DNA of 45,904 nt. Origin: an uncultured Bacillota bacterium (GTDB lineage: Bacteria > Bacillota > Clostridia > Oscillospirales > Oscillospiraceae). Position numbers and translations under genes: made by a program. Below, piece by piece: positions 1-36,552 of the stretch (the stretch's first letter is position 1; each line of letters starts with the position of its first letter). The stretch spans positions 1-45,904 of the forward strand of contig CANDKT010000005.1 in assembly GCA_947385365.1 (NCBI GenBank). Reading direction: 5' to 3'. Below the pieces are notes generated by a model. The model was not told the origin of the DNA, did no database searches, and saw only the letters and a list, made by a program, of their open reading frames with translations.

Positions 1-66
1 CAGGCCGCCGCACACGCCGCACACGATTTTATAGTCGCCTTCCGTCCGATATAAGCGTTTTTCCAT
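1..66 (-). CDS. PspC-domain protein, N-terminal fragment
   Basis: Only the first 22 codons lie in the window; the gene continues past the left edge. The start is ATG at 66-64 with an AGGAGG ribosome site at 76-81 (reverse complement) nine bases upstream. The visible peptide begins MEKRLYRT and then reads KIVCGVCGGL, the typical opening of PspC domains, in which a short basic stretch is followed by a Gly-Val-Cys-Gly-Gly-Leu turn before a membrane helix. PspC proteins are small membrane proteins linked to envelope stress, either alone or as modules of larger proteins. Which type this is cannot be told from the fragment. Confidence 0.75.
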   Translation of the reverse strand, partial: MEKRLYRTEGDYKIVCGVCGGL

Positions 67-200
67 CACGCTCAACCTCCTGATCGAAAAATTTCAGTCC
101 CCGCGGGGAACGTGGAGTTTACAGTTACAGGATACGCCGCGGCAGACGAAAAATCCATAGATTTCGGATGAAAAAAAGATTAAAATACAGGGAGCGTTCT

Positions 201-1379
201 CTACTTCTGCGCCGTCGTGACCAAATCGCCCTGTTCGTTGAAACGGGCCGGGCGGATCTTGTTCCCGGTGAACTTCTGGATCTCGTCCAGGCGCAGGCCC
301 TCGGTGATGCTCGAAACCAGCGAAAACGCTACGCCGTGCCGTTTGGCCCGGCCTGTGCGGCCGATGCGGTGGATGTAGTACTCGTTCTCGTCGGGCACGT
401 CGTAGTTGAACACCGCGTCCACGTCGTCGATATCCAGACCGCGGGCGGCCACGTCCGTGGCGGCCAGCACCCGGATCTGACCGTCCCGGAATTTTTTCAG
501 CGTCTTCTCCCGGACGGACTGCTGAATCTCCCCGTGGATGGCCTGACAGGAGATCCCCCGCATATTCAGCAGACCGGACAGGCGATCCGTCATGTTCCGG
601 GTGTTGCAGAACGCGATGACCCGCTCGTAGTCTCCCATCTCCAGCAGGCGCGCGAGGACCTCCGCCTTCTGCTCGCGCTCCACGTCCAGCCGGAACTGCG
701 CGATATCCGGTTTGTTTGCCGCGTCGGCGGGGACCGTGATCTCGACCGGGTCCCGCTGGTAGACCCAGGAGATATCCATCACCTCCCGGGAGATGGTGGC
801 GGAAAACATCCCCAGATTACGCCGGTCCGGCATTTTGTCCAGAATGTGGGTCACGTCCCGCACGAACCCCATGTCCAACATACGGTCCGCCTCGTCCAAC
901 ACCACCGTCTGCACCTTGTCCAAGCAGATCGTGCGGCGTTTCATGTGGTCCATCAACCGCCCCGGCGTCGCGACGACGATTTGAGGACGCTTCTTCAGCT
1001 GGACGATCTGCCGGTCAATCGGCTGCCCCCCGTAGAGGCAGGCCACACGCACCCCTTCGCGGAACGCGCACAGGTCGCGCAGCTCGTCCTGGATCTGCAA
1101 GGCCAATTCCCGCGTGGGAGCCAACACCAACGCTTGCACATCCCTGGAGGCGGGGTCCACGTGTTCCACCATCGGTATCCCGAACGCGAACGTTTTGCCG
1201 GTACCCGTGGGGGCTTTGGCGATGACGTCCTTCCACTCCATGAAGAAGGGGATCGCGCCGCTCTGGACCGGCGTGGCCTGCATATAGCCTTTCTTTTCGA
1301 TGGCGCGCATCAGTTCCGGAGACAGCCCTAACTGCGCGTACTGCAACGTCTCGTTCACGGCTTGCCCGTTGATCTCCAT
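201..1379 (-). CDS. DEAD-box ATP-dependent RNA helicase
   Basis: ATP-dependent RNA helicase of about 392 residues, expected to remodel RNA duplexes in ribosome assembly or mRNA decay. From the ATG at 1379 it shows a Q motif (ATPVQSGAIP), motif I APTGTGKT (residues 56-63), Ia PTRELALQ, Ib TPGR, the VLDEAD box, motif III SAT, motif V DVAARGLD and motif VI HRIGRTGRAKRHG. It has the helicase core and almost no C-terminal extension, unlike CsdA/CshA proteins with long RNA-binding tails. The frame is open up to 1535, but the ATG at 1379 follows a purine-rich AAAGGAAAG site and starts where the family starts, so the longer version is unlikely. A minus-strand promoter lies at 1494-1521. Confidence 0.93.
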   Translation of the reverse strand: MEINGQAVNETLQYAQLGLSPELMRAIEKKGYMQATPVQSGAIPFFMEWKDVIAKAPTGTGKTFAFGIPMVEHVDPASRDVQALVLAPTRELALQIQDELRDLCAFREGVRVACLYGGQPIDRQIVQLKKRPQIVVATPGRLMDHMKRRTICLDKVQTVVLDEADRMLDMGFVRDVTHILDKMPDRRNLGMFSATISREVMDISWVYQRDPVEITVPADAANKPDIAQFRLDVEREQKAEVLARLLEMGDYERVIAFCNTRNMTDRLSGLLNMRGISCQAIHGEIQQSVREKTLKKFRDGQIRVLAATDVAARGLDIDDVDAVFNYDVPDENEYYIHRIGRTGRAKRHGVAFSLVSSITEGLRLDEIQKFTGNKIRPARFNEQGDLVTTAQK

Positions 1380-1493
1380 TTGCTCGTCTTTCCTTTCTGT
1401 CTCGAATGGCGAGGCCCGGACCGCAAAGACGTCTGTTCTCCCGGACGCGGCCCCAACTCCTGGGAACGGCGTTCCGTTCCCGCCGCACCCTAT

Positions 1494-1521
1494 ATTATAG
1501 CGGTTTTTCCGGGATTGTCTA
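1494..1521 (-). promoter_or_regulatory. Predicted sigma-A promoter of the DEAD-box helicase gene
   Basis: On the minus strand a TAGACA box (1521-1516) is followed after 16 bases by a perfect TATAAT (1499-1494). This places the transcription start about 105-110 bases before the helicase ATG at 1379. Confidence 0.6.
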
Positions 1522-1578
1522 TCCCCGCGCAACAAATTCCCGCACCCGTCTCATAAAAGCGGTCGGGGGTACGCTGGG

Positions 1579-1671
1579 TGTGCAAAGCAGGACGCGTTTG
1601 TGCAAACGGTATGTGCATCCGCGGCGGAACATGTGCAGCGCATATGTGCAAATTCCTGCACAGTATGTGCA
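1579..1671 (+). repeat. Array of TGTGCA motifs upstream of the XRE-PIN-ankyrin operon
   Basis: The hexamer TGTGCA occurs at 1579, 1599, 1612, 1632, 1645 and 1666, plus one inverted copy (TGCACA) at 1657. Start-to-start spacings are 20, 13, 20, 13 and 21 bases, an alternating pattern with a 33-base period. Several copies read TATGTGCA or CATGTGCA. The array ends 16 bases before the predicted -35 box of the operon whose first gene encodes an XRE DNA-binding domain. Inference: an operator array for that protein or another regulator. The intergenic stretch 1380-1771 otherwise holds only the two promoters. Confidence 0.65.
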
Positions 1672-1687
1672 TTGTTTCCCGGCGATA

Positions 1688-1717
1688 TTGACGCACACCA
1701 ACCGGGCGTGCTATAGT
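1688..1717 (+). promoter_or_regulatory. Predicted promoter of the four-gene XRE-PIN-ankyrin operon
   Basis: TTGACG (1688-1693), an 18-base spacer and TATAGT (1712-1717). The start codon at 1772 is about 48 bases below the expected transcription start. Confidence 0.6.
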
Positions 1718-1771
1718 AAAAACGGTCCCGGTCCGCCAAACGGACCGGATTTCCGGGAGGCGGCAGACGAT

Positions 1772-3115
1772 ATGGCGAAGCGATTGTTCGGAGAAGAGGA
1801 CGCGCGGATCGAGAAGGAACGCAACGCGATTATCCGGAAAAATATGCGGGAGATCCGAAAGCAGTCCGGGAAAACCCAGGAGGAAGTCGCGCGGGGGCTG
1901 CTGATCGACCGAACCGTGTACTCCAAGTACGAGACCGGGAAACTATCGCCGGGCGTGGAGTTCGTCCAGCGGTTCGCGGCGTACTTCAACATCCCGCCGG
2001 ACCGTTTGGAGAAGAGCGTTTCGGCGGTCATACCGGACACGTCCGCGCTGCTGAAAAACCGGCGGCTGCTGAGCCTGCTGCTGCACGACTTCGACGTGGT
2101 CCTGATCCCGGACATCGTGCTGAGCGAGCTGGACCATCAGAAAGATCACGGTCGGAACCAGAAGGCGGCGTGGCAGGTGATGATGACAATCGACGACTAC
2201 CGCACCCGGTACAGCGACCGTCTGGTGGTGGTGCGCAGCGAAAACCACACGGCGGGCCGGAACGACGACGCGATTTTGGACGTGGCCCGCGCAATGGACC
2301 GGAAGCTGAACAAGAAGGTCTACTTGATTCACGACGACATCGGCATGACGTTGAAGTACGACAACGGCATCCTCCTGCGGGACTACATCGCCAAGCGGAC
2401 CTGCTACACGGACTACGAGAGCCTGCTGTCGCTGGACGAGGAGTACGACCGGCTGGACTGGTACCGGAAGCTGGCGGGCACGTTGGATCTGAACGCGTAC
2501 TTGCCCGACGGCATGACGCTCCTGATCCGGTGCATCCGCTGCAACGACCCGGACAAGATCGAAGAGCGCGGCGGTTACTGCGTCCCGGATTCGAAGCGGT
2601 ACAAAAAGCTGGAGTTCCTGTTATCCGCGGGCGCGGACCCGGACACGACCGATAACAGCCGGTACTGCCTCACGCCGCTGGCGCACTGCGTCCAGGCGGG
2701 GGATTTCAAAGCGTTCTGCATCCTGCTGGCGCACGGGGCCGATTACAACAAAGGTTCCGTGGACGAGGTCACGCCCAGTTACCTGAAAATGCAGAACGCC
2801 AACGAAGGGAACACCCCTTTGATGATCGCCTGTTGGCATGGCCGAAAACGTTTCGTAAAGAAGCTCTGCCAACTGCCGGACATCTCGCTCAACCAGCAGG
2901 ACAGCAACGGTTACACCGCCTTGCACAAATGCGCGGTGCAGCGGTACAACCGGAAGAAACAGCAAAAAAGCGTCGCCGCGATGGAAGCGATCTATCGCTA
3001 CTTACTGACGGTCCCGAACGTGGACACGCTCATTCGGGACCGGAACAATCGGACCGCCGCGGATTGGTGGCGCGACGGGGACGCTTTAGAAGAGGAGGGC
3101 CCGACGGATGATTGA
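1772..3115 (+). CDS. XRE HTH - PIN ribonuclease - ankyrin repeat fusion protein
   Basis: Predicted 447-residue cytoplasmic protein with three parts. Residues about 20-77 form an XRE/Cro helix-turn-helix (SGKTQEEVARGLLIDRTVYS, then YETGKLSP). Residues about 85-215 form a PIN domain that keeps the usual acidic positions: D89 (IPDTSALL), E119 (VLSELD), D165/D166 (NDDAILD) and D188/D189 (LIHDDIGM), so an active metal-dependent RNase site is plausible. Residues about 245-430 contain ankyrin-like repeats (TPLAHCVQAGDFKAFCILLA, GNTPLMIACWHGRKRFVKKL, GYTALHKCA). The start is ATG 1772, 11 bases after GGGAGG; the open frame runs upstream to 1406 but covers the promoter and motif array. The gene overlaps the next by 8 bases. 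PIN and ankyrin calls rest on motifs; I do not know a named family with this order. Confidence 0.82.
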   Translation: MAKRLFGEEDARIEKERNAIIRKNMREIRKQSGKTQEEVARGLLIDRTVYSKYETGKLSPGVEFVQRFAAYFNIPPDRLEKSVSAVIPDTSALLKNRRLLSLLLHDFDVVLIPDIVLSELDHQKDHGRNQKAAWQVMMTIDDYRTRYSDRLVVVRSENHTAGRNDDAILDVARAMDRKLNKKVYLIHDDIGMTLKYDNGILLRDYIAKRTCYTDYESLLSLDEEYDRLDWYRKLAGTLDLNAYLPDGMTLLIRCIRCNDPDKIEERGGYCVPDSKRYKKLEFLLSAGADPDTTDNSRYCLTPLAHCVQAGDFKAFCILLAHGADYNKGSVDEVTPSYLKMQNANEGNTPLMIACWHGRKRFVKKLCQLPDISLNQQDSNGYTALHKCAVQRYNRKKQQKSVAAMEAIYRYLLTVPNVDTLIRDRNNRTAADWWRDGDALEEEGPTDD

Positions 3116-3914
3116 CCGCATCTGTATCTCGCTGAGCGACCGGTGCAATTTGAACTGCGCCTACTGCCACTTCCGGGAGAAGAAGACGATGGACCCCGCG
3201 CCGATGGACGCGCTGGAGATCCTGCGGCACGTGAAGGAGTACGCCCACGGTCCGTTCAAGATCGGCTTCGTCGGCGACGGGGAGCCGTTCCTGGAGCTTG
3301 ACCTTCTGAAGGAGTGCCTGCGTTTCATGGAGGACAGCCCGTTCCTCCAAGCCTACACGATCACGAACGGGACTATCCCGCTCTCCGCAGAGGATATCCG
3401 CTTCCTGGAACGGCATTCGGTCAACGTCGGCGTTTCTCTGGACGGCTACCAGACCCTGCATGACAGGAACCGCTGCAATTCCTTCGAACGGGTCATGGAG
3501 AACGTGCGGCAGTACCGGGACGTCGCCGGGCATTTCCCCACGTTCAACGCCACGGTGGGACCGGAGAGTTTGCGGAACCGGGAAGCGGTCTTCTCTTTTT
3601 TTGAGCCGTTCGGCTCGAAAGTGACCTTTTCCAGAATGATCGGACCGCATGGGATCTCCCTGCCCGCGTACCGCGCCTTTCTGGACGAGGCGGAAAAACG
3701 ACTCCCCATCCGGCGGGGCGGTCTGGACTGCACCATGTACGGCGGCCAATGCGCCGCCGGAACCAATAACTACTTCTTCGCCAACGGCAAAGTCTACTAC
3801 TGCGGCAACTGCGTGGATCTCCCGCCGGTCGCGGACAGCTCCGTGCGCTTCTCCGACCTGGAACGGCTCTCCCTGACCTTCGACCGCAGCCGGTGCTACA
3901 AGGAGTCGCTATGA
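3108..3914 (+). CDS. Radical SAM enzyme with SPASM-like C-terminus
   Basis: Predicted radical S-adenosylmethionine enzyme of 268 residues. The cluster motif CxxxCxxC is at C13, C17 and C20 (CNLNCAYC), at the extreme N-terminus as in minimal radical SAM barrels. The C-terminal part has further cysteines at 208, 215, 232, 235 and 263 around NGKVYYCGNC, resembling SPASM or twitch auxiliary cluster regions. GDGEPFLE resembles the GGEP strand that contacts SAM. The start ATG 3108 is nine bases after AGGAGG, and the gene overlaps both neighbours (8 bases before, 4 after), so translation is coupled. The substrate is unknown. The kinase-HAD and phosphoribosyltransferase partners suggest a nucleotide-like or base-like molecule, but peptide or RNA modification is also possible. 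Confidence 0.88.
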   Translation: MIDRICISLSDRCNLNCAYCHFREKKTMDPAPMDALEILRHVKEYAHGPFKIGFVGDGEPFLELDLLKECLRFMEDSPFLQAYTITNGTIPLSAEDIRFLERHSVNVGVSLDGYQTLHDRNRCNSFERVMENVRQYRDVAGHFPTFNATVGPESLRNREAVFSFFEPFGSKVTFSRMIGPHGISLPAYRAFLDEAEKRLPIRRGGLDCTMYGGQCAAGTNNYFFANGKVYYCGNCVDLPPVADSSVRFSDLERLSLTFDRSRCYKESL

Positions 3915-4963
3915 AGATCGGACTGTACGGCCTGCCGTCGGCAGGCAAGACGACCTTGCTGGAACAGATCCGCTTCGCTCCGGTGCGGAACGGGAGCCGT
4001 CTGCTTCAGGAACTGGCCCCCACGTTCGCCGGACTCCCGGAGAGGGCGCGGCGCGAGGTCCGGAGACGTCTGGCGCGGACGCTCCAAGCCGAGGACGGCT
4101 TCGTGATGGACGGACACTACGCGTTCGGGGACACGGTCGTGTTCACGGAGGAGGACGGCGCGCTTTACGACGCGTTCCTCTACCTGTACGTCGACCCGGA
4201 GGTCTTGCGGGAACGTATGGCGCGGTCCGAGAAGAATCGCGCCTACGCCGCCTTGGACCTCGCCCGCTGGCAGCGGGCGGAGATCGAAGCGCTGCGCGCC
4301 TACTGCCACGGCCACGAGAAGGATTTTTACGTGCTGGACGACCCGCCGCAAAACTGCTTCGCGGACGTGACGGAACCGCTCTCGTTTCTCCGCGCGGTCT
4401 GGGAGGGGTACAGCTGCGTGCAGTTCGCCCGGACGTGCGCGGCGGAGATCCTGGCCGAGGACGTCCGTCCCGCCGTCACGCTGACGGATGGCGACCGGAC
4501 CCTCACGGAAGAGGACAGCAGTTCGGCGGTGTTCCGCTACCGGACCCGGCTGTTCGACGGCAATTTTTACACCGGCTACCAGTCCTGGCGGCAGGCAAAA
4601 GAATTTCACGCCGTGGAACTCCCAGCGCAAGCGGCTTTGCCGGTCCGCTTCTCCCCCAAAATCCTGGCGCGGCTGGAACCGCCCGTGTACATCCTGACGT
4701 CCGGACATCCGGAAATCTGGAAACGGTTCGCCGGACAACTCCGCTTCCGGTACTTCTGCGGAAGTCCGATGTCCGCGGACACCAAAGGTTTCATCGCAAA
4801 ATTTCTCCGTCAGGCCGGCAGAACCGTGACCGCGTATGGGGACAGCCTGAACGATTACTATATGCTGAAACAGGCGGATCAGGGCTACCTGGTCACCCGG
4901 TCGGACGGGAGTACGAGCCGTTCTTTGAAGGGCAGAGATCTGGGAGGGATCACGTTTGTTTGA
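3911..4963 (+). CDS. P-loop kinase - HAD phosphatase fusion
   Basis: Bifunctional-looking protein of 350 residues. The N-terminal half (about 1-165) is a P-loop nucleoside or nucleotide kinase-like domain with Walker A GLPSAGKT (7-14) and an arginine-rich lid region (RERMARSEKNR, about 100-110). The C-terminal half (about 185-345) is a HAD-family phosphatase: nucleophile motif D193-G-D195-R-T, motif II ILTSG (261-265), a motif III lysine in ADTKG (K292) and motif IV GDSLND (310-315). All HAD catalytic positions appear intact. ATG 3911 follows AAGGAG and overlaps the radical SAM stop as ATGA. A kinase joined to a phosphatase suggests processing of one phosphorylated intermediate. Substrates cannot be read from the sequence. 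The family calls are strong; the joint role is inferred. Confidence 0.85.
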   Translation: MKIGLYGLPSAGKTTLLEQIRFAPVRNGSRLLQELAPTFAGLPERARREVRRRLARTLQAEDGFVMDGHYAFGDTVVFTEEDGALYDAFLYLYVDPEVLRERMARSEKNRAYAALDLARWQRAEIEALRAYCHGHEKDFYVLDDPPQNCFADVTEPLSFLRAVWEGYSCVQFARTCAAEILAEDVRPAVTLTDGDRTLTEEDSSSAVFRYRTRLFDGNFYTGYQSWRQAKEFHAVELPAQAALPVRFSPKILARLEPPVYILTSGHPEIWKRFAGQLRFRYFCGSPMSADTKGFIAKFLRQAGRTVTAYGDSLNDYYMLKQADQGYLVTRSDGSTSRSLKGRDLGGITFV

Positions 4964-5456
4964 ACTGGAAAAAAATCCGGAGGTACAGCGGTTCATTCAG
5001 GTCACGAAGTCCGACTCCGGCGTTTCCGGACCGGAGTTGGCTCTGGCGCATATGGAGCTGGGACGGCGTCTGGCGGAGCGCATGGACTTCAATCCCGCCG
5101 AAACCACAGTCGTCGCAATCCTGCGGGGCGGTTTATTTTTCGCGGAGGGACTCTATTTTCAGCTCGGGTGCCGCTTCCAGACCTACGACCCCAAACGCGA
5201 GACCTTCCAAAGGCCCGCGACCCCTAAGGTGATCCTAGCCGACGCGGTCATCAACACGGGGAAAACCATCCGCGCCATTCTGGAACCGGACATGACGGTC
5301 GCCTGCTGCGTGGCCCACGAGAGGGCGGCGGCGGACTTACGGGATCAACTGTATACGGTGCGGGTCTCGGGGAACTCCTTCGTCGGAGCGGAGGTCCGCA
5401 GGCAATCCGGGGCGGTAGGCCCGGACACCACGCTGCGCCTGTTCAATCTGATCTAG
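4956..5456 (+). CDS. Type I phosphoribosyltransferase-like protein
   Basis: Predicted phosphoribosyltransferase of 166 residues. The PRPP loop VILADAVINTGKT is at 92-104, with the aspartate and TGKT typical of the family, and the pyrophosphate-loop region AILRGGLFFAEG is at 54-65. The C-terminal VGPDTTLRLFNL resembles the end of uracil phosphoribosyltransferase-like proteins. It should join a base-like substrate to PRPP or run the reverse reaction. The start is TTG 4956, eight bases after GGGAGG, overlapping the kinase-HAD gene by 8 bases. It is the last gene of the operon; a strong terminator follows 40 bases downstream. It could be an ordinary salvage enzyme, but the operon context argues for a dedicated pathway. 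Confidence 0.82.
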   Translation: MFELEKNPEVQRFIQVTKSDSGVSGPELALAHMELGRRLAERMDFNPAETTVVAILRGGLFFAEGLYFQLGCRFQTYDPKRETFQRPATPKVILADAVINTGKTIRAILEPDMTVACCVAHERAAADLRDQLYTVRVSGNSFVGAEVRRQSGAVGPDTTLRLFNLI

Positions 5457-5495
5457 CGCGGTGCGTTCCGGGACCGGAGGGCCCCCGTCCCTTGG

Positions 5496-5537
5496 CACAA
5501 TAAAGCCCAAGCGCGGAAGCGCTTGGGCTTTATTGTG
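5496..5537 (+). terminator. Strong hairpin terminator after the phosphoribosyltransferase gene
   Basis: A perfect 19-base-pair stem, 5496-5514 with 5519-5537, closed by a GGAA loop. The lower stem is A/T rich (CTTTATTG on the 3' arm), which serves as the U-rich part. It closes the four-gene operon. Confidence 0.85.
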
Positions 5538-5542
5538 AAAAA

Positions 5543-5810
5543 GAGGATTAAAATGAAACGAACTGTCTCTTGCGAATCTTATGATACCGGAAAGATATTA
5601 ACAAGTCCAACCGAATATGTTACATAAGTTTTAAATCTTTCCGCTTCCGGTCCGCTCCGGAAAAGGGAGAACGGCCAGCGGGACGCTCCGCGGGCCGTTC
5701 TAAAAAATTGGAGGATAGAATGAAAAGATGTTCTTGCCTTGCGAGTATCAGTATATCCAGGTTTTATTAAGAAAGCTATCCTCAAATGTTACAAAAACTT
5801 TAAATATTCG
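5543..5810 (+). repeat. Degenerate tandem duplication in a convergent intergenic region
   Basis: Two related segments of about 100 bases lie at 5543-5640 and 5711-5810. Each starts GAGGAT, contains an AATGAAA start and CTTGCGA, and ends with ATGTTACA followed by TTTAAAT. Each carries a ribosome-site-like purine tract before a tiny open frame: 5553-5627 (24 codons, MKRTVSCESY...) and 5720-5770 (16 codons, MKRCSCLASI...). The small frames share only the first residues, so they may not be genes. A hairpin lies between the copies. The region 5457-5827 has no other gene. Confidence 0.4.
5669..5700 (-). terminator. Hairpin, possible terminator for the signal peptidase transcript
   Basis: GAACGGCC (5669-5676) pairs with GGCCGTTC (5693-5700), and an inner GCGG/CCGC stem lies around a GACGCT loop. 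Read on the minus strand it is followed by TCCCTTTTCC, a weak U-rich tract. It lies 130 bases below the signal peptidase stop. Confidence 0.4.
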
Positions 5811-5827
5811 CGCCGCGCCATTCCGCC

Positions 5828-6439
5828 TCAGAAGACGCCGATCCGGTCCGGCGGCCACAGGCCAAGCACGACTTTGCCTAAGATGTAGTCCTCGTCCACC
5901 GGTCCCAGCCGCTGATCGCGGCTATCCGTGGAGGCGTTGCGGTTATCGCCCATGACGAAGACGGCGTGTTCCGGGATCTCCCAATGGGTCTGCTGCATGG
6001 TGAAGCCGTTGGGCAGGTACATTTGCTCTTTGATGTAGGGTTCGTCCAGCGGCTGGCCGTCCACGTAGACGGAGCCGGTCTCGTAATCGATATCCACGGT
6101 CTGCCCGCCCCGGGCGATGACGCGTTTGACAATCGCGCGGTTGTCCAGAAAATCCGCCGTGACCTTGTTCAGCACGACGATATCGCCCTGCTGCGGGCGG
6201 TAGCCCAGGGACCAGACCAACATCAATTCGCCGTGTTTCAAAGTGTTGTCCATAGAACCGCCATCCACGCGGGTCAGCCGGGCGAAGCAGTTGAACAGCA
6301 GTACCGCGGCCAGCACGCACCACATGACCATCTGGAACCAATCAAAAAATTCCCGGCCCGGATTCCGGGCATCCTCCGGTCCGTCAAGCCCCTCCGGCTG
6401 CCCCGCTGAAACGTTCCGGTTTTCAAATTCATCGCGCAA
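5828..6439 (-). CDS. lepB: Signal peptidase I
   Basis: Membrane-anchored serine protease that cleaves signal peptides from exported proteins. The product is 203 residues with one N-terminal membrane helix (about 36-54) and the catalytic domain outside. The catalytic serine is S62 in GGSMDNTL and the general base is K105 in NRAIVKRVIARGG. The conserved box GDNRNASTDSRD follows near 164-175. The length fits the short Gram-positive type. The start is TTG at 6439-6437, eight bases after AGGAGG (6453-6448 on this strand); no in-frame ATG is better placed. A minus-strand promoter lies at 6469-6497. The first 30 residues are acidic and proline rich, as expected for a cytoplasmic leader. Confidence 0.95.
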   Translation of the reverse strand: MRDEFENRNVSAGQPEGLDGPEDARNPGREFFDWFQMVMWCVLAAVLLFNCFARLTRVDGGSMDNTLKHGELMLVWSLGYRPQQGDIVVLNKVTADFLDNRAIVKRVIARGGQTVDIDYETGSVYVDGQPLDEPYIKEQMYLPNGFTMQQTHWEIPEHAVFVMGDNRNASTDSRDQRLGPVDEDYILGKVVLGLWPPDRIGVF

Positions 6440-6468
6440 GGTTTATACCTCCTTCCCCGTTCGCCTTT

Positions 6469-6497
6469 ATTATAAGCCCTTTCCTTCAAAATTGCAA
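6469..6497 (-). promoter_or_regulatory. Predicted promoter of signal peptidase I
   Basis: On the minus strand TTGCAA (6497-6492), a 17-base spacer and a perfect TATAAT (6474-6469), ending about 30 bases before the TTG start. Confidence 0.65.
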
Positions 6498-6613
6498 GAC
6501 GCTAGATTGCTATCACTGCGCCTATCCCATAAAAGTTGTATTTTTCCTCGAAAAAACGAAGTGTTGACGCGGACCAGACAGGGTCTGCCGTCACCGTGAA
6601 TACAGGAAGGATA

Positions 6614-6640
6614 ATTAAAAACGAAATTTTCGTTTTTAAT
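6614..6640. promoter_or_regulatory. 27-base palindrome upstream of the SWIM gene, likely operator
   Basis: ATTAAAAACGAAA (6614-6626), one central T, then its exact reverse complement (6628-6640). It abuts the -35 region of the following promoter, a common position for an operator. It lacks the GC core and trailing T tract of a terminator. Confidence 0.55.
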
Positions 6641-6641
6641 A

Positions 6642-6669
6642 TTGGTTTTCTGAGCGGGCGTGGTATAAT
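6642..6669 (+). promoter_or_regulatory. Predicted promoter of the SWIM zinc-finger gene
   Basis: TTGGTT (6642-6647), a 16-base spacer and a perfect TATAAT (6664-6669). The -35 box is weak, so activation or control through the adjacent palindrome is plausible. Confidence 0.55.
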
Positions 6670-6863
6670 GTAGACATCAAAAACGCATGAAAAAAAGTGA
6701 CATTAAGAAGAGTGAAGCCTATCAAAGCGGTTTCCTTGAGGGAACCGTTCCCATGTATGAAGCGTACATGGATTTGAAGAAGGTTCTCATGAAAGCAAAT
6801 GAGGGGGGCTGTATATGGAGCTTTCCAAGTATGCAGCCTGTCAGACACGTGGAGGTGGAGACG

Positions 6864-8582
6864 ATGCCTTTTCGGCAAGGAATACAGCAGTTTTTAGATG
6901 ATGTAAATCCTACCATCCTGTCCCGCGGAGAGGATTATTACCTTTCAGGGCAAGTGGAGAGCATCGACTGGAACGAAAATCATGTGACTGCCGAGGTCTC
7001 TGGCAGTGAAGATGAGCCCTACTTCGTCGAGCTTGACTTTTCAGAAGACGGTGAAGTGGAGGACTGGTCCTGCGATTGTCCCTATGACTGGGGTCCAGTA
7101 TGCAAGCACACAGCGGCGGTACTGCTGGCCATTCAGGAGGAGTCACCAAAGGAGTCGAAGAACGGCCCTGAAGCTCCAAAAACTGACCTTAGGCCCTTGT
7201 TGGAACGCGCTGAGAAGTCACAGCTTGTCGCATTGATCTTGGAACACTGCCGGGAGGACCTGCGTTTCCGAAGCCGGGTCTTGATGGAGCTGGAAAGCAG
7301 CGATGAACAGGAGATGGAGGGGATCAAAACTCTTGTAAAAACCTCTATTCGTTCCAATACACACGGTGGATACATTGATATGAGGGACTGCGATAAAATT
7401 TGCCTGGATCTTGACGAAGCCTTGGATCAGGCCCGCCGCCGCGTCAAGGACGGACGATACGATCAGGCTCTGAACATTACGTTGTTTATCCTGCGCACGG
7501 CAGTAAAGCTGGACAGGGAAACGGACAACAGTTTCGACTCTCTGAGTTACACAGTTGACGCCGCATTGGAAACTGTGGAGCTTATCGCGGCCGGGCTTGC
7601 CGAAAGCGGAGGAAAACGGGAAACGATTGTGGAAAAGATATTAAAAACTGCGGAAGACCCGGCGTTTGACGACTGTGATGACTGGCGCTATGACCTGGTG
7701 CAGCGTGCGGCGTCGCTGGCGGACAAGGAAAATGAAGGGGAGTTCTATCGTCTGCTGGACCGTCTGAGCGACCAGCAATGGGAAAAATTTCAGGACACGC
7801 CCATGTGTGACGAAGCGGATAAGATCACCCGCTATGCCATTTTGCGTTCCGCTCAGGGGCCGGAGGCGGCCAGGGCGTACCTGGAGGAAAACCTGGAAGT
7901 GGATAAATTTCGCCTGATTCTGATACGGGAAGCTATGACAAAGAAGGAGTATGCCTATGCGGAACGCCTGTGTCGGGAGCGGCTGGAAAAGGAGCAGATA
8001 AAGGGCTGGTACTGCTCTGATCTGTGGCAGAATCTTCTCTATGAAATCTACCGGGATGGAGGACAGCGGGAGGAGCAAATCAACCAGGCCCGCAAGCTGG
8101 CCCTTTTGGGGAACCAGGCTTTCTATCTGACCGCGAAGGAACTGCTGACAGAAGATGGGCGCTGGCAGGAGGTGTACCCAGGATTCATTGCGGAGCTGAA
8201 AGCCGAACGGCCTGTATATGAGTACATGGAGATTCTGGAGCTGGAGGGAGATGTACCGTTATTGATGGAGCAGGTCCGTTTGAATCCGGAATCCGTATTC
8301 CACTATGGAGACGTGTTGGCTGGGCAGTATGGGGAAGAAGTCTATCAATTGTGTACAGATGTGATTCGGAAGGATTCGGACCAGGTTGGAAACCGGCGTG
8401 AGTATCAAGCATTGTGCGACCTGATTAAGTCGTTAGCGGACTTTGGGGGACGGGCTGAGGCGAAGGCAATTATTGCCGAACTGCGGCAGAAATATCCCCG
8501 CCGCCCGGCGCTGCTGGATGAGCTGGGGCGAATAGAGCCGAAATGTTGTGAACCCGCACCTTCACATCGAAAAGTAATTTGA
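6864..8582 (+). CDS. SWIM zinc-finger protein
   Basis: Protein of about 572 residues with an N-terminal SWIM zinc finger: CDCPYDWGPVCKH fits the CxCx(n)CxH pattern. It is preceded by the usual region with RGEDYYLSGQVESI. SWIM domains bind DNA or protein; bacterial members often sit near helicase or repair genes, and their function is poorly known. The rest is helical, with acidic and leucine-rich stretches like a tandem helical-repeat solenoid. I chose ATG 6864 because GGAGGT lies seven bases upstream and family members start there. The frame is open back to ATG 6687, adding 59 residues, but that start is only about ten bases from the predicted transcription start and has no ribosome site. 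Base composition is lower in GC than the flanking core. Confidence 0.8.
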   Translation: MPFRQGIQQFLDDVNPTILSRGEDYYLSGQVESIDWNENHVTAEVSGSEDEPYFVELDFSEDGEVEDWSCDCPYDWGPVCKHTAAVLLAIQEESPKESKNGPEAPKTDLRPLLERAEKSQLVALILEHCREDLRFRSRVLMELESSDEQEMEGIKTLVKTSIRSNTHGGYIDMRDCDKICLDLDEALDQARRRVKDGRYDQALNITLFILRTAVKLDRETDNSFDSLSYTVDAALETVELIAAGLAESGGKRETIVEKILKTAEDPAFDDCDDWRYDLVQRAASLADKENEGEFYRLLDRLSDQQWEKFQDTPMCDEADKITRYAILRSAQGPEAARAYLEENLEVDKFRLILIREAMTKKEYAYAERLCRERLEKEQIKGWYCSDLWQNLLYEIYRDGGQREEQINQARKLALLGNQAFYLTAKELLTEDGRWQEVYPGFIAELKAERPVYEYMEILELEGDVPLLMEQVRLNPESVFHYGDVLAGQYGEEVYQLCTDVIRKDSDQVGNRREYQALCDLIKSLADFGGRAEAKAIIAELRQKYPRRPALLDELGRIEPKCCEPAPSHRKVI

Positions 8583-8604
8583 GAGACAGACGTGAAAAAA
8601 TTGC

Positions 8605-8634
8605 TTGACAATATTGCGTACCGTGTGATATAGT
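8605..8634 (+). promoter_or_regulatory. Predicted promoter of the pPIWI-RE operon with overlapping palindrome
   Basis: TTGACA (8605-8610), an 18-base spacer and TATAGT (8629-8634). The palindrome GTACACTTGTAC (8633-8644) overlaps the -10 box and the expected start site, an operator-like position. A leader of about 145 bases precedes the first gene. Confidence 0.7.
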
Positions 8635-8728
8635 ACACTTGTACACGAGAAAAGTGAAGAGGTTCCACTCTGATATACAGGCTCCTCTGTGTAGGCGTCA
8701 GTGTATCAGTGTAATTGTAGCTTATTGT

Positions 8729-8755
8729 GGCTCTCTTGTACAAAACAAGAGAGCC
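8729..8755 (+). terminator. Leader terminator (possible attenuator) before the pPIWI-RE operon
   Basis: A perfect 11-base-pair stem, GGCTCTCTTGT (8729-8739) with ACAAGAGAGCC (8745-8755), followed by ATTTTTAG and a second T-rich stretch. It lies between the promoter and the first gene, so it would stop most transcription before the coding region unless antitermination occurs. The upstream segment AGAGGTTCCAC (about 8659-8669) could pair partly with GTGG and CTCT of the 5' arm, giving a possible alternative structure. It could instead end a separate small RNA. Confidence 0.7.
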
Positions 8756-8787
8756 ATTTTTAGTTGTTTTTGAAAGGAGGATGAAAT

Positions 8788-9918
8788 ATGGATTTGGCAT
8801 TTCTGGAAAAGGCATTTGCATTGATTGCGAAAGGACTGATAGAAAAAGAGCAGCTGCTGCAAAAGGAGCCGACACGATATCCATACAGTAAAGAATTGCA
8901 GCATGGGATCAATATGTTCCTGACTGCGAGTATCCAAGTAGGAAAAGTAGGAGGGAATGTCTTCGAATGGGCTGATGAAGCATCTTTTCTGCGGCAATTT
9001 ATCACGAGACCAATTCCGGAGTGGTTTTTGGAATGGAGCCCGGATGTGGTAAGAGAGTTGAATCTGGAGGATCAGCCGTTTTATGGTTATGAAGCCTTTG
9101 CACGTCGAAGAAACGAGAATATTTATATTCCAAGCTCGGAGTGCTATGAATTTCTTGATACGCAAGATAAGGATATCATATCTGGAACAGATGAGAGAGT
9201 CCTATATGAAAAAATGTTTCTGTTAGGTCAAGATGCTTATTGCCGTCTTCGCAGATATCTCATTGAACATCCCATCATTACCATAGATGAAAAGCGTATG
9301 ATGCGGGTAGAATTGGCAGATGATCGAATGGGAAGAGAGGCGTTTGAGTTTGCTTATGAAGAAATCACCGAGGAAAGTTTTCGTTGTCCATATTGTGGTT
9401 GGACTATGACCCGAGGCAAGTATGGTTTTAACTGTCATTCACCTCATTGTACCGATATCGTTCCGGAATTAACGGATAATATGAAACTGGATATCTCTAG
9501 TGGAATGTTCCGGTTGAAAAAAGGTATCATGCGCTATTTTGCGCAGCCCGGAAAACTGGAACTTGCCATCGCGGATTTTTGTGAAAAGAAAAAACTGTCT
9601 TGGACTTTGTGGCCATACATGGACAAATTTGATGTAGAGATTCGATTTTCTGATGGGGAAGTTTGGGAAATTGATGCAAAAGCATACCGCAATCCCATTA
9701 CACTGAGAACAAAAATCCAAAATGATAACGGCTTTCCTGTAGGAGATTATACCAGGGGGTATTTTGTTGTTCCGAGCGAATATACATTGGGTCAGCGCAA
9801 CTATACAGCAGTTGTCAATAAAGCGCTAAAGCAGCAGACAAATGTTAAATGTATCACCTTAAGAACACTGAAATCAGAGATTTCACAAAAGGAGGCGAAA
9901 ATTCTTGCGGCAGACTAA
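8788..9918 (+). CDS. REase-fold nuclease of a pPIWI-RE three-gene system
   Basis: 376-residue protein. A zinc-ribbon pattern lies at C200, C203, C216 and C221 (FRCPYCGWTM ... NCHSPHC). Downstream is a restriction-endonuclease-like core with D282 (DKFDVEIRF) and D296-A-K298 (VWEIDAKAY), matching the D...(D/E)xK catalytic pattern. In published pPIWI-RE loci (Burroughs, Iyer and Aravind 2013) a nuclease of this kind is encoded with a DinG-type helicase and the pPIWI-RE protein, and that order is seen here. ATG 8788 follows GAAAGGAGG by seven bases. The stop overlaps the next gene by 14 bases. Lower GC and more AT-ending codons than the surrounding core suggest acquisition. The nuclease call is from motifs; target specificity is unknown. 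Confidence 0.8.
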   Translation: MDLAFLEKAFALIAKGLIEKEQLLQKEPTRYPYSKELQHGINMFLTASIQVGKVGGNVFEWADEASFLRQFITRPIPEWFLEWSPDVVRELNLEDQPFYGYEAFARRRNENIYIPSSECYEFLDTQDKDIISGTDERVLYEKMFLLGQDAYCRLRRYLIEHPIITIDEKRMMRVELADDRMGREAFEFAYEEITEESFRCPYCGWTMTRGKYGFNCHSPHCTDIVPELTDNMKLDISSGMFRLKKGIMRYFAQPGKLELAIADFCEKKKLSWTLWPYMDKFDVEIRFSDGEVWEIDAKAYRNPITLRTKIQNDNGFPVGDYTRGYFVVPSEYTLGQRNYTAVVNKALKQQTNVKCITLRTLKSEISQKEAKILAAD

Positions 9919-12900
9919 TGTAAACGCACGATATGCGCCTCTTGAGGCACAATTTCAACTGATTGAAGATGCGATGCCCCTCTATCGTTTCGCTGCCATT
10001 GAAGCAGTCTTGTACTTGCTGCTGCTCAGTACTCCTGACGCTGACCCAATGAAAGCGTACCTTTTATTTTCGCAGTACCAGTTAATTGGCACTACGCAGT
10101 GCAGTGCTATGGAACACATTTTACAGCGTGCAAGATATACGCTTGGCTATTATCGCTCTAAAAAATACTGGCAGGATGATTTACATACTTATCGAGAACA
10201 GAGATATGATGCAGTCCGCGCATTTTCCATTCAAGAAACAGAGGGAAAACTGTCTTTCCTGAAATCATCGGAAGCATACCCCTATCCCTATGAGGAACGC
10301 GAAAAGGAGTGGCGGACGTTTTGGCTTGAAGGTGATGTGGATAATGTATCATTCCGTTATGCGGGAACAGGGATTTACAAATACATTCGCCCTGGTTCCG
10401 AAAAGGAAGAAGCAGAAACGGTTTCTGTAAAAATCGAAGCGGAATGCGCTGCGCCGAATTTACCGTTACCGCATGCAAAGGGGATTCGCCCGCCAGTTTC
10501 AATCCCAGTTGAAGAACTTTTGGCCGCAGCGTTGGAGATGTCCGAAATATGTCCGGGTGATCCCTGCTATTCGATTTTGAATGCAAATGTCTTGAAACAG
10601 GTATCAGGCTCATCTGTTCAGAAATGTACTGCTCTTGATACCTGTGCAGTGACCAATATTGTAGGTATGGTCGGCTCTGGAAAGTCAACTCTGATTAAAG
10701 TGTTGTCTTACTGGTGTCACAAAAAGGGGTATCAAATTGCAATCGTTGTGGATACGGTAGCAGAAGTGATGAATTTGCAGAAATACCTGTCCTCGTTTGG
10801 GATTTTATGCAGTCCGCTGATCGGTCGCAGTGAACGCCTGAAATATATTAACCAAGTTGTTCAACCAGATGATATGTGTCTCTCGGCGGACTTTTCAAAG
10901 TATTTGACGCCTGCTTGTTTCATTGATGGGATGGATGAACAGCATAGTACAGCTTTGTCATTTGGAAAAGAACCCTGTTATTCGCTGAAGAAGCATGGAA
11001 AACGTTATCTTTGCCCCTATTTTGATGATTGTCCTGGGACAAAAATGTTGCGGGAATGTTATTGTGCATCCGTTGTGGTCACTACTGTCGCGGGATTTGC
11101 GGCTTCACGGGTGGGCCGAACCAGAGAGACATTTTTAGAATTGGCAATGCGCAGCATTGATTTCGTTATCTTTGATGAGTGTGATCGGGTTCAGAAAACA
11201 CTGGATTATTTCTTTATGCCGGAAACCAAGTTTAATGATTTTATCAACGACAGTGCAGAGGACTGTAGCGCTTACATGAAGCTGGCCAGCAAACGCCGCG
11301 AAGAAAATTTAGCTGCCCAAATCTATGACGAATTGCAGCGACAAAGTGTGACGGTATTAAGCTGCCTGATCAAGTCCATGCACTATAATCTGGGGGCGTG
11401 GCAAAAGATTACATACGGCGATTCATTTTCTGCACTTACACTATTAGATGATTTGTATCAGGATGACACCGAATATAAGATCCCCAAAGTTGTTTATAAA
11501 TCGCTGTATCACTTGATTGATTTAGGAGATGAGGATTCAATTAAGCAGACCACATTATGGGCTGTACTGGAAAGCTCCTGTAAAAGTGTGAATGATTCGT
11601 TTTTCAATCATATGTACCGTGCTTGGCTGAGTGAACTTGGGTCCGAATTTCCGCGTCCTGCAAAAGACAAGGCGAAGCAGATCCAGGATGCACGAATCAA
11701 GCTGATTTTGCGGCTGATTTATTTCGATCACTTTATCCGTAACCTGAGCGATGCATATGAAGCCAGTCATGAAACTGCTTATGAGCAAAATGAACTGTTT
11801 AGTTTTTTGCAGACGCGATTCCGTCAGCAACAATATTTTCTGCCGTCCGCACTATGCGGAAACTTGTTTGGGATGCGAAAAACGGAGGATGAGGATATCG
11901 TACTCTTTCGTCAGTTTGCGTTTGGCCGGAGTCTGATGAAAGATTTACCGTATTTACGAACGCTGGAAGATGGCAGTCCTGCTGGGCCGCATACGATTTT
12001 ATTGTCTGGTTCCAGTTGGGCGGAGGGGTCGTATGAGTATCATGTAAACCGACCGGTCCATTACATCCTAGAGGCAGGGAAAGAAAAACGGAGATTTTTA
12101 GAAAAAACGCGTTTTTATGAATCTGGATTTTCAGAACGTGTTTCAGGGGCGGGCGACAACCGTCGTATGGAGCAGCTTCGTATTGTGACACAGAAGACCG
12201 TAGAATGGATTATTCGAGAATACAACCGGAATGCCGGAAAAATTCTTCTTGTGGTAAATAGTTATTCGCAAGCCGAGGAGGTACAGCAGATCCTGGATAC
12301 TGCTCTCAGGGAAGCGCACTGTCCGGCTGGTGTATGCCGGATGATATCGGATGCGCTCGATGGTCCGGACAAGACCGGTACAGTCCGGCGCGGTGAGGTG
12401 AACCGGTTTGCTGGTATGGACGAGAGTATCTTAATTGCACCGGCAATGGCGATTGAACGAGGTCATAATATCGTGGATGAATCTGGTCATTCCGCGCTTT
12501 GCGCTGTTTTCTTTATGGTGCGTCCGATGGCTGTCCCGGATGACATTCAGCAAAAAGGAAGCAAGTTGAATGGTTTTGTGGAGGCGCACTGTAAACGGAA
12601 TTTGGGTGAGTCTCTATTTGATTATAACATACGAATCCGAAAATTTGCAGCACAGTATTGGTCTGAAATCAGCAAAAGCAAGGCGCTTGGGCTATCGGAT
12701 CTGGAGGAAAATGAGCAAAGAGACATTGTAGCAACTTTGTTCGTTTTGATCCTGCAAATTTTTGGCCGTTTGGCTCGAGTGACTGATGTGACAAGGCCCG
12801 AACCCCATGTCTATTTTATGGACGGTGCATTCCGTGGTCGAGAAGACAAACAAGGTGATTTCGATTGCTTATCTGCCCTGGGAAAATATCTTGAAGGCTT

Positions 12901-12988
12901 GATGACCCAGAAAGAGAGCGCTGAAATTGCCAATACGCTCTATGCTCCATTTTATGAGGCATACAAAAAGGACATTCAATATGAGTAA
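9905..12988 (+). CDS. DinG/XPD-like Fe-S helicase of the pPIWI-RE system
   Basis: Large superfamily-2 helicase-like protein, 1027 residues. Walker A GMVGSGKST has its lysine at K260; Walker B FDECD is at 423-427, in the DEAH-type position. Between them are four cysteines, C358, C370, C376 and C385 (CYSLKKHG ... LCPYFDDCPGTK ... REC), placed like the 4Fe-4S cluster of XPD/DinG helicases. The C-terminal motor half includes APAMAIERGHNI, a motif V-VI-like region. The first 250 residues are an extra domain typical of pPIWI-RE partners. The start is TTG 9905, nine bases after AAAGGAGG inside the previous gene; no ATG gives a better start. It should unwind nucleic acid for the nuclease and PIWI partners. 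Confidence 0.85.
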   Translation: MRQTNVNARYAPLEAQFQLIEDAMPLYRFAAIEAVLYLLLLSTPDADPMKAYLLFSQYQLIGTTQCSAMEHILQRARYTLGYYRSKKYWQDDLHTYREQRYDAVRAFSIQETEGKLSFLKSSEAYPYPYEEREKEWRTFWLEGDVDNVSFRYAGTGIYKYIRPGSEKEEAETVSVKIEAECAAPNLPLPHAKGIRPPVSIPVEELLAAALEMSEICPGDPCYSILNANVLKQVSGSSVQKCTALDTCAVTNIVGMVGSGKSTLIKVLSYWCHKKGYQIAIVVDTVAEVMNLQKYLSSFGILCSPLIGRSERLKYINQVVQPDDMCLSADFSKYLTPACFIDGMDEQHSTALSFGKEPCYSLKKHGKRYLCPYFDDCPGTKMLRECYCASVVVTTVAGFAASRVGRTRETFLELAMRSIDFVIFDECDRVQKTLDYFFMPETKFNDFINDSAEDCSAYMKLASKRREENLAAQIYDELQRQSVTVLSCLIKSMHYNLGAWQKITYGDSFSALTLLDDLYQDDTEYKIPKVVYKSLYHLIDLGDEDSIKQTTLWAVLESSCKSVNDSFFNHMYRAWLSELGSEFPRPAKDKAKQIQDARIKLILRLIYFDHFIRNLSDAYEASHETAYEQNELFSFLQTRFRQQQYFLPSALCGNLFGMRKTEDEDIVLFRQFAFGRSLMKDLPYLRTLEDGSPAGPHTILLSGSSWAEGSYEYHVNRPVHYILEAGKEKRRFLEKTRFYESGFSERVSGAGDNRRMEQLRIVTQKTVEWIIREYNRNAGKILLVVNSYSQAEEVQQILDTALREAHCPAGVCRMISDALDGPDKTGTVRRGEVNRFAGMDESILIAPAMAIERGHNIVDESGHSALCAVFFMVRPMAVPDDIQQKGSKLNGFVEAHCKRNLGESLFDYNIRIRKFAAQYWSEISKSKALGLSDLEENEQRDIVATLFVLILQIFGRLARVTDVTRPEPHVYFMDGAFRGREDKQGDFDCLSALGKYLEGLMTQKESAEIANTLYAPFYEAYKKDIQYE

Positions 12989-13454
12989 TATTATTTATCC
13001 CCTGGCATATCAGTTAACTCCTGGTCAAACACAAACGCTTTATTATTTGGGCTTTCCGGCGTCCTGGAAAACTGTGCTACTGGAAATTGCGCAAAAAAAT
13101 AACCCACGCTTTAAAGATGAATATGGTCTGCCGACCAACGCCCTGAAAAAATTAGTTGACAGCTGGATGGAAGGTATCATTGCATTAGCGCCGCTGAAAA
13201 AGGACAGTCATGATGAGCATTGGCTCACATCCTGCTATCGGTACACAGAACAGGATATCAGGGTATTATGTGGACTCATTAAGGTTTGGGTGATGGCGAC
13301 TTACGTCGTGCCACCGAAAGTATCTCCGGTGGTGAAGGAGATGGCCCGTAATTTTTGTGAGAAAGTTTGTCCGGAAGCATTCCTGTCGAATCAAAGTGAG
13401 CAAACCGTATGTCTGACAGCGGAAGACGGAACCGTAACGGAGGAGGCGTACTAA
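12981..13454 (+). CDS. pPIWI-RE protein, N-terminal part (ended by in-frame TAA)
   Basis: 157-residue product starting at ATG 12981, which overlaps the helicase stop (ATGAGTAA) and follows AAGGAC by eight bases. An in-frame ATG exists at 12927 but lies inside the helicase gene without a ribosome site. The protein is helical and tryptophan containing (PASWKTVLLEIAQ, VDSWMEGIIAL). It stops at TAA 13452-13454. The next gene is in the same reading frame only 18 bases on, and the bases between read without further stops (AIPLLA). Together they give about 825 codons, near the size expected for a pPIWI-RE protein. I therefore read this as the N-terminal domain of one split protein. Alternatively it could be a real separate subunit. 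Confidence 0.65.
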   Translation: MSNIIYPLAYQLTPGQTQTLYYLGFPASWKTVLLEIAQKNNPRFKDEYGLPTNALKKLVDSWMEGIIALAPLKKDSHDEHWLTSCYRYTEQDIRVLCGLIKVWVMATYVVPPKVSPVVKEMARNFCEKVCPEAFLSNQSEQTVCLTAEDGTVTEEAY

Positions 13455-13472
13455 GCGATCCCCTTACTTGCA

Positions 13473-15458: not shown

Positions 15459-15677
15459 TGAGATGTCGATACACCCAAAGTAAATGATTACCCAATCGGA
15501 TCCTTTTTCGGGGAACCTACCATGATCTCAGTTTGAGGGCAACGTATCCGGAGCAAGCTGCGGAAAGTCCTGTGCTTTTCTGGCGCGGCATGATAGAATG
15601 GAGCCATAGAACGGAACAGACAGCGGGCCGGGAAGGAATAGGGGTAATGCCCACACGGGAAGGGGAGAAAATGGACG

Positions 15678-36282: not shown

Positions 36283-36464
36283 AAACTTATCCTCCCTATT
36301 GTGCGGTTTTTGCTCTATTATGGAATAGTTTATCATAATTCTATGCGTTCCGTCAATGTCTAAACTTTCTCGGACTACGCCCGTCTCATAAAAGCTGTCT
36401 TCTCCCCCGAAGGGAGAAGAATACAAAAAATTCTCTTTCTTTGTTGAAATTTTTTCTTCCTTCG

Positions 36465-36494
36465 TGCAACATTTCCGCCTGCTCATCTGTATAC
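36465..36494 (+). promoter_or_regulatory. Candidate ECF-sigma promoter of the secreted-protein/sigma operon
   Basis: TGCAACATTT (36465-36474) resembles the -35 of clostridial ECF sigma promoters and CTGTATAC (36487-36494) the -10, with about 16-17 bases between the AAC and TGTA cores. It would let the sigma factor encoded downstream activate its own locus. This is inferred; no sigma-A promoter is obvious here. Confidence 0.4.
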
Positions 36495-36552
36495 AAGGCA
36501 GAACGGCAGGAGTACCGTTCGAAACGACTGAAATAGAAAGGAAGATCATCTT

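Follow-up and report, generated by a model that had tools for sequence, protein, structure and literature searches.

Among the described systems closest to the one considered here, Clover consists, in the part of its report drawn on here (PMC12265719), of the deoxynucleoside triphosphatase (dNTPase) CloA, which is the effector, and the nucleotidyltransferase CloB. The sections drawn on from the DefensePredictor report (PMC13092281) describe systems with PIN RNases (DS-3 and DS-5) or a HAD phosphatase (DS-9), and these PIN or HAD parts protect or occur in protecting systems. This study concerns a four-gene operon in a 45,904-nucleotide stretch of DNA from an uncultured member of the Oscillospiraceae (contig CANDKT010000005.1; the whole stretch is referred to as the window). 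The operon joins an XRE-PIN-ankyrin protein (XPA) to a radical S-adenosylmethionine (SAM) enzyme, a kinase-HAD fusion, and a phosphoribosyltransferase (PRTase). No named system with this set was known to the original prediction made for this DNA, and literature searches likewise returned no named system or paper with it among the titles and abstracts listed (subscription papers and most preprints lay outside their scope). As judged from sequence comparison, the four genes form a linked set with conserved catalytic residues, a retained PIN domain, and an upstream repeat array, and the set is present in viral contigs. The best explanation for the whole, offered tentatively and at well short of even confidence, is that the module is a mobile, self-repressed, small-molecule-gated PIN ribonuclease switch with an anti-phage output.

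The operon spans 1772-5456, its successive genes overlap by 8, 4, and 8 bases, and its elements are the following.

1579-1671, forward strand: operator-like TGTGCA array (repeat counts; the 20-21 base pair (bp) pair spacing recurs in relatives)
1688-1717, forward strand: sigma-70-like promoter TTGACG-18-TATAGT (motif match)
1772-3115, forward strand: XPA, with an XRE helix-turn-helix (HTH) at residues 25-79, PIN at 87-195, and ankyrin repeats at about 276-396 (open reading frame (ORF) and Pfam)
3108-3914, forward strand: radical SAM enzyme with CxxxCxxC and a second cysteine set (ORF and Pfam)
3911-4963, forward strand: P-loop domain, nucleoside monophosphate (NMP)-kinase-like, fused to a HAD phosphatase, called kinase-HAD (ORF with conserved ATG, and Pfam)
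4956-5456, forward strand: PRTase resembling uracil phosphoribosyltransferase (UPRTase) (ORF with TTG start, and Pfam)
5496-5537, strand not assigned: 19-bp hairpin at the operon end (folding energy)

The ORF calls matched the gene positions and the co-directional, overlapping layout given in the original prediction, which also proposed one promoter and a single terminator. The promoter was found, with 10 of 12 consensus matches and a TG preceding the second hexamer. The terminator is the less certain part: the hairpin is strong (5457-5545 folds at -52.3 kcal/mol, z -6.4), its U-rich stretch sits within the stem, and it is likely to be the operon terminator. Given the overlaps, promoter, and hairpin, co-expression of the four genes would follow. 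A long minus-strand ORF antisense to kinase-HAD (3896-4996), absent from the original prediction, is taken as spurious.

Complete sets occur at 19 loci (the window, 13 other bacterial genomes, and five viral contigs), and in 18 of them the order is XPA, radical SAM, kinase-HAD, PRTase; L018 has instead kinase-HAD-PRTase, XPA, radical SAM. Bacterial carriers include Lachnospira multipara and Sporofaciens musculi. Scattered homologues would have spoken against the original prediction, and the neighbourhood analysis found them not generally scattered, the exceptions being five of 17 carrier genomes without a radical SAM gene. These carriers came from a kinase-HAD search of genome contigs that gave 17 relatives. 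In 12 of these the four genes are neighbours, with XPA truncated at the contig edge in L009 and L013. In L005 XPA is shortened and radical SAM is absent, L014 has only a 5'-cut kinase-HAD and the PRTase, and L019, L020, and L021 have a kinase-HAD-PRTase fusion on contigs ending nearby. The two enzymes are a single open frame in all of L018-L021, cut at the contig start in L020 and L021. In whole-genome searches of the 17, 12 had a single radical SAM copy and five had none; 14 had an XPA match, which for the L021 genome was weak, partial, and on a different contig. Four of the five genomes lacking radical SAM also have no XPA or a weak partial one, and the enzymes occur without XPA in three of the 17 (L014, L019, and L020), or four if the weak L021 match is ignored. 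Many of the carrier genomes are metagenome assemblies, and apparent losses may be gaps. A further complete copy lies in genome G900; G930, from the same search, is L006 again. Over 15 loci, Mantel correlations of distances are high for kinase-HAD with PRTase (r 0.82) and for radical SAM with kinase-HAD (0.81).

Scans of viral contigs with kinase-HAD and PRTase alignments holding no viral sequence each gave the same four contigs, all with complete sets, and a radical SAM scan gave these four and no others. An XPA scan, also from an alignment without viral sequence, matched seven contigs, namely the four plus L088, L086, and L089; five of the seven have all the enzymes, L086 ends inside XPA, and L089 matches in ankyrin repeats only. 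Several ankyrin-repeat genes stand in series on the L089 contig. With L088 added to its alignment, the radical SAM scan gave 20 loci, comprising the five complete contigs and 15 partial matches (20-33% identity), and a profile check at 1e-3 found no kinase-HAD or PRTase at those 15. The proteins of L088 are 28-36% identical to those of the window with the gene order kept, and they retain the PIN acids, the P-loop lysine, the HAD aspartates, the PRTase GPDTxxRLFN tail, and, apart from C263, the cysteines of the radical SAM enzyme. Because pattern scans depend on exact short peptides, they reach near relatives only; L088 was not picked up with kinase-HAD or PRTase.

The module is rare in the genome samples, which overlap and in many of whose genomes only the first 4-8 candidates were scored. 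The window's genome was the sole carrier of a full-length kinase-HAD in samples of 199 phylum genomes and 300 family genomes, the latter also containing G366, whose match is confined to the HAD part; three of 236 class genomes had a full-length kinase-HAD, the window's own among them. Among 398 phylum genomes, both the radical SAM enzyme (467 bits; next best 78 bits) and full-length XPA were restricted to the window's genome. No match to kinase-HAD or radical SAM, whether from the window or from L088, was found in 72,556 plasmid records (E limits 1e-5, 1e-20, 1e-4, and 1e-12), and none to the window kinase-HAD or XPA or to the L088 kinase-HAD in 50,697 phage records.

XPA matches HTH_3 (E=2.7e-13), PIN_4 (8.8e-12; 45.9 bits against a cut-off of 21.9), and Ank_2 (2.6e-17). 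A PIN domain with its acidic residues had been proposed, and the profile match, by which the fold was assessed, bears this out together with conservation: D89, E119, D165, and D189 are all retained in 13 of 15 aligned XPAs. The two exceptions, the close relatives L008 and L025, carry D89H and D165K, and in both the gene after XPA encodes a second PIN-ankyrin protein without an HTH (PIN_4 51 bits in L025) and, as read by eye, with intact acidic residues. These tandem pairs, at L008 412-2915 and L025 4677-7180, have a PIN-mutated first member and an HTH-less second member with the PIN residues, and they are read as a regulator and effector split into two proteins. Since the loci with a mutated XPA PIN carry a second, intact PIN-ankyrin protein, the nuclease appears to be under selection and its activity appears to matter. 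XPA evolves faster than the enzymes (mean identity 39% versus 55-63%).

The original prediction did not mention the repeat array upstream of XPA. In the window, direct copies of TGTGCA begin at 1579, 1599, 1612, 1632, 1645, and 1666 (spacings 20, 13, 20, 13, and 21), giving pairs 20, 20, and 21 bp apart, and an inverted copy lies at 1657. An inverted half-site, GCACA (1693-1697), read by eye, overlaps the end of the first promoter hexamer and the spacer. Within the upstream 250 bases, none of 300 shuffles reached the cluster count of TGTGCA for any 6-mer. L017 has the same layout, TGTGC is also used by L024 and by L018 (before its first gene), and GTTGC with 20-21 bp pairs is found in L007, L010, L011, L012, L016, L023, and L026. 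Strict motif pairs at 20 or 21 bp occur in 11 of 16 upstream regions, compared with six of 1976 control segment-strands (both strands of 260-base pieces from the same loci). This count leaves out L009, L013, L014, L019, L020, and L021, where upstream DNA or XPA is missing, and L086, which shares its upstream region with L026. L088 and L128 enter only the motif-free lag analysis, in which the 18 regions together give 59 repeated 5-mers at lag 20, compared with an average of 6.6 (standard deviation 6.5) for the remaining lags between 8 and 60; a ten-region subset shows the same lag-20 peak (40). The upstream regions are related, and hence the array statistics are not independent. L088 carries GTACATTG twice, 20 bp apart, and L128 has no strict pair and, by eye, GTTG pairs at 20 bp. 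Also by eye, the motif type tracks the XRE recognition helix: KST/KSS-x-SR helices are found at the eight GTTGC loci (including L005, which lacks a strict pair), and different ones, ending in YE, at the four TGTGC loci. The array is read as a conserved control element, and XPA is its putative binder.

The kinase-HAD protein matches AAA_17 (2.7e-8) and, below the family cut-off, HAD-type Hydrolase (7.7e-4). Its P-loop lysine is K13, and the HAD residues D193, D195, T197, K292, D311, and D315 show no variation across the 19 aligned sequences. Beyond AAA_17, the kinase part has weak thymidylate-kinase-type matches only, and it may resemble AK6-type NMP kinases; the HAD part has weak matches to HADs of the P-type ATPase and phosphoserine-phosphatase types. 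The PRTase matches Pribosyltran (1.2e-6; 28.4 bits against a cut-off of 26.3) and has a DxVINTG loop from D96 and the GPDTxxRLFN tail. Against Pfam UPRTase (cut-off 27 bits) it scores 21.7 bits and its fused relative in L018 scores 33.0 bits. The evidence that it is UPRTase-like is moderate, because direct profile comparison (hhalign) with the genome's own UPRTase is weak (probability 0.3%). In PADLOC, kinase-HAD and PRTase each matched no family at E up to 1. A distant HAD-PRTase fusion without a kinase or other partners occurs in the window's own family (L022, 1243-2718), beside what by eye is a membrane flippase gene; this protein matched none of 398 genomes at 1e-10, in a search without a positive control.

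The radical SAM enzyme (Pfam Radical_SAM, E=1.3e-18) has CxxxCxxC cysteines C13, C17, and C20, invariant in 17 of 17 sequences, and a second set, C208, C215, C232, C235, and C263, in a region that we take to be a shortened SPASM/Twitch-like tail.

Under the favoured explanation, XPA would be repressor and effector at once: its XRE domain, seated on a cooperative array of 20-bp-spaced sites, would hold the operon down, and its PIN domain would act as an RNase. The UPRTase-like enzyme would couple a pyrimidine-like base to ribose-5-phosphate, the phosphorylation state of that product would be set by the kinase and HAD domains, and the radical SAM enzyme would modify the base, the sugar, or an intermediate. 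The product would be a ligand that restrains XPA via the ankyrin part. Infection or stress would disturb nucleotide or SAM metabolism and so change the ligand, XPA would leave the array, and the freed PIN domain would cut RNA and stop growth or phage production. We infer, then, that XPA may bind the array, that the product may be a pyrimidine nucleotide acting on XPA, and that the output may be anti-phage, a role that is plausible. A restraining product is likelier than an activating one in this small sample, because the enzymes can persist without XPA while no lone XPA turned up in 398 phylum genomes, with four candidates scored in each, or in the viral XPA scan. The most specific form of the proposal, a pyrimidine-type second messenger made by the radical SAM enzyme that would restrain a self-repressing PIN RNase on a 20-bp-phased array, as an immune switch of phages and bacteria, is doubtful, and more so than the general one.

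The chemistry of the radical SAM enzyme admits two other accounts. In one, the enzymes would act like viperin and make a modified pyrimidine nucleotide that poisons phage polymerases, leaving XPA to regulate and to provide back-up shutdown. The only PADLOC matches of the radical SAM enzyme are two pVip (prokaryotic viperin) models (best 42 bits), a PRTase and an NMP-type kinase could feed such a nucleotide, and the module is present in viral contigs; however, on the NCBIfam viperin model it reaches 35 bits where the cut-off is 180, less than on HxsB and other maturase models, the second cysteine set is invariant, and the retention of PIN catalysis would be left unexplained. We regard this account as unlikely. 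The nearest NCBIfam families are SPASM-type peptide or protein maturases (HxsB, CcpM, PapB, and sulfatase maturase), with HxsB the best at 77.7 bits against a cut-off of 370; no cut-off was passed among the best 25 of 79 families. This and the best solved-structure relatives, which include sulfatase-maturating and peptide-modifying enzymes, suggest a second account, in which XPA or a phage protein is matured by the radical SAM enzyme, and a ribose-phosphate mark is put on or taken off by PRTase and kinase-HAD. It is rather improbable, as the operon has no precursor-peptide gene, kinase-HAD and PRTase persist where radical SAM is absent, and the radical SAM core is common to many chemistries.

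Other accounts turn on where the module sits and on what the remaining enzymes do. XPA might serve prophage addiction or lysogeny control, stalling cells that lose the element or tuning the lytic or lysogenic choice, as might be expected of an XRE protein with an operator-like array and of the L025 module, which lies after an endolysin gene and before serine recombinase genes (one tested). The L088 copy lies instead between a portal-like gene (by eye) and a terminase gene (25-26% identity to three phage records), and the genes flanking bacterial copies vary by locus, as read from ORF lists with no prophage caller; the probability of this account is similarly low. A kinase fused to a HAD phosphatase is also the layout of T4 Pnkp, which would make it an enzyme repairing PIN-cut RNA. 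This is very improbable: a solved-structure search gave no Pnkp among 49 matches at E up to 1, the operon has no ligase gene, and the L022 HAD-PRTase fusion without a kinase ties HAD to the PRTase, and Pnkp repair was rejected on these grounds. An ordinary pyrimidine salvage operon would fit a UPRTase-like PRTase and is scarcely credible. The genome has a separate housekeeping UPRTase gene elsewhere (256 bits), which also answers the concern in the original prediction that the PRTase might itself be the salvage enzyme, and that gene, the rarity of kinase-HAD in the family, and the viral copies led to the rejection of salvage.

Several observations weigh against the favoured switch. The evidence for it comes from sequence throughout, and the solved-structure matches of the enzymes are generic folds that point to no particular substrate. 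The lack of radical SAM in five of the 17 carriers may mean that it is dispensable, that the module has decayed, or that the genomes are incomplete. XPA distances correlate weakly with those of the enzymes (r 0.33-0.49), the alignment used for the radical SAM scan already included the four viral members that it returned, and the lack of a lone XPA in 398 phylum genomes is a weak result, with four candidates scored per genome. Across the whole window TGTGCA occurs 25 times against 18.2 expected, a count reached by seven of 100 shuffles, and only its clustering is unusual. In single-region tests (300 shuffles), 20/21-bp pairing had P up to 0.01 in only seven of 18 regions (the window, L017, L011, L016, L023, L026, and the head of L018), three of the 18 being alternative starts in L018. 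L006, L015, L008, and L025 have no array upstream despite their XRE domains, and the helix RTVYSKWE of L008 and L025 speaks against a simple helix-motif rule. Finally, PADLOC families at 1e-30 were about as common in control stretches (32) as in the flanks of the module (34). The flank set was all 80 proteins of at least 150 amino acids from 12 loci (without the window flanks, L008, L009, and L019-L021), and for the controls 15 stretches were placed content-blind in six module-bearing genomes and 80 of their 164 proteins were taken, roughly every other one.

Mobility is suggested by the endolysin and serine recombinase neighbours in L025; in L026 the module follows an amidase-glucosaminidase. 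The five genomes of the window's genus in the sample of 300 family genomes gave no kinase-HAD match, and they offer no clean insertion site, with cshA and lepB on different contigs or, in a one-contig genome, about 156 kb apart. In the four viral contigs L023-L026 the module is followed by a gene for a NERD-domain protein (L025, 9704-10876), relatives of which adjoin the module in L009, L016, L018, and L019; the protein is a possible, optional fifth component. It was found in four of 18 genomes and not in the window's, and a scan with an alignment already containing L023-L026 returned those only. Defence linkage of the module is anecdotal, resting on neighbour proteins chosen by eye: L018 has as neighbours a DruE1-type gene (1767 bits) and a weak DruD match, AbiD occurs in L010 and L013, and a DrmD-type helicase in L015. 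In the window, a three-gene pPIWI-RE island on the forward strand (8788-15458), encoding a REase, a DinG-type helicase that includes domain Z, and a pPIWI-RE protein containing MID and RNaseH domains, begins 3.3 kb downstream of the PRTase, and an AAA ATPase and DUF4276 pair on the reverse strand (34445-36549) matches the HEC-01 candidate defence system. A SWIM-domain protein is encoded at 6687-8582. The operon is flanked upstream by a CshA-like helicase gene (201-1430, reverse strand) and downstream by the signal peptidase I gene lepB (5828-6439, reverse strand). Two similar AT-rich stretches about 170 bases apart, TGTTACATAAGTTTTAAAT and TGTTACAAAAACTTTAAAT, seen by eye, lie between operon and lepB (5618-5805). 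An Rfam scan of window positions 1-16000 gave no match at gathering scores.

To our knowledge, no immune effector is known to be controlled by a nucleotide signal that a radical SAM enzyme makes together with a PRTase. If the proposal is true, signal-gated immunity would gain a chemistry and an effector that represses itself; the module is a defined, testable four-gene unit, and with its operator array the regulatory half can be tested directly in vitro. The original prediction compared the enzymes with Ter-linked nucleoside modules, which likewise combine PRTase and HAD domains and which we take to be defined by a PRTase_2/PRTase_3-type enzyme. This comparison did not hold and a Ter module was rejected: the PRTase is of the Pribosyltran/UPRTase type, the sole PRTase_2 match is that of L018 (14.4 bits against a cut-off of 28.8), radical SAM and PIN proteins are present, and no Ter gene was found among the genes scanned. 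VapBC and other PIN toxin-antitoxin systems similarly pair a PIN RNase with a DNA-binding regulator, and the occurrence of enzymes without XPA resembles antitoxin and toxin logic; however, the HTH is here fused to PIN and ankyrin parts in one protein and the partners are enzymes rather than a small antitoxin. The SPASM maturases share the radical SAM core and extra cysteines, but the module's enzyme has a shorter tail, no precursor peptide in its operon, and linked enzymes of nucleotide type. Prokaryotic viperins are alike in how they may work, in that a nucleotide kinase may act alongside the radical SAM enzyme, and in the CxxxCxxC motif; unlike them, the module has an enzyme scoring below the viperin cut-off, the second cysteine set, and a PIN effector. 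The DefensePredictor systems, as presented in the sections used (PMC13092281), differ in being one or two genes without this set; one figure legend of that report carries a PRTase label. Clover, judged from the same part of its report as above (PMC12265719), is comparable only in how it works, in that a nucleotide from the partner enzyme restrains the effector, whereas the module would restrain a PIN RNase that carries its own DNA-binding domain and would do so through radical SAM, kinase-HAD, and PRTase enzymes.

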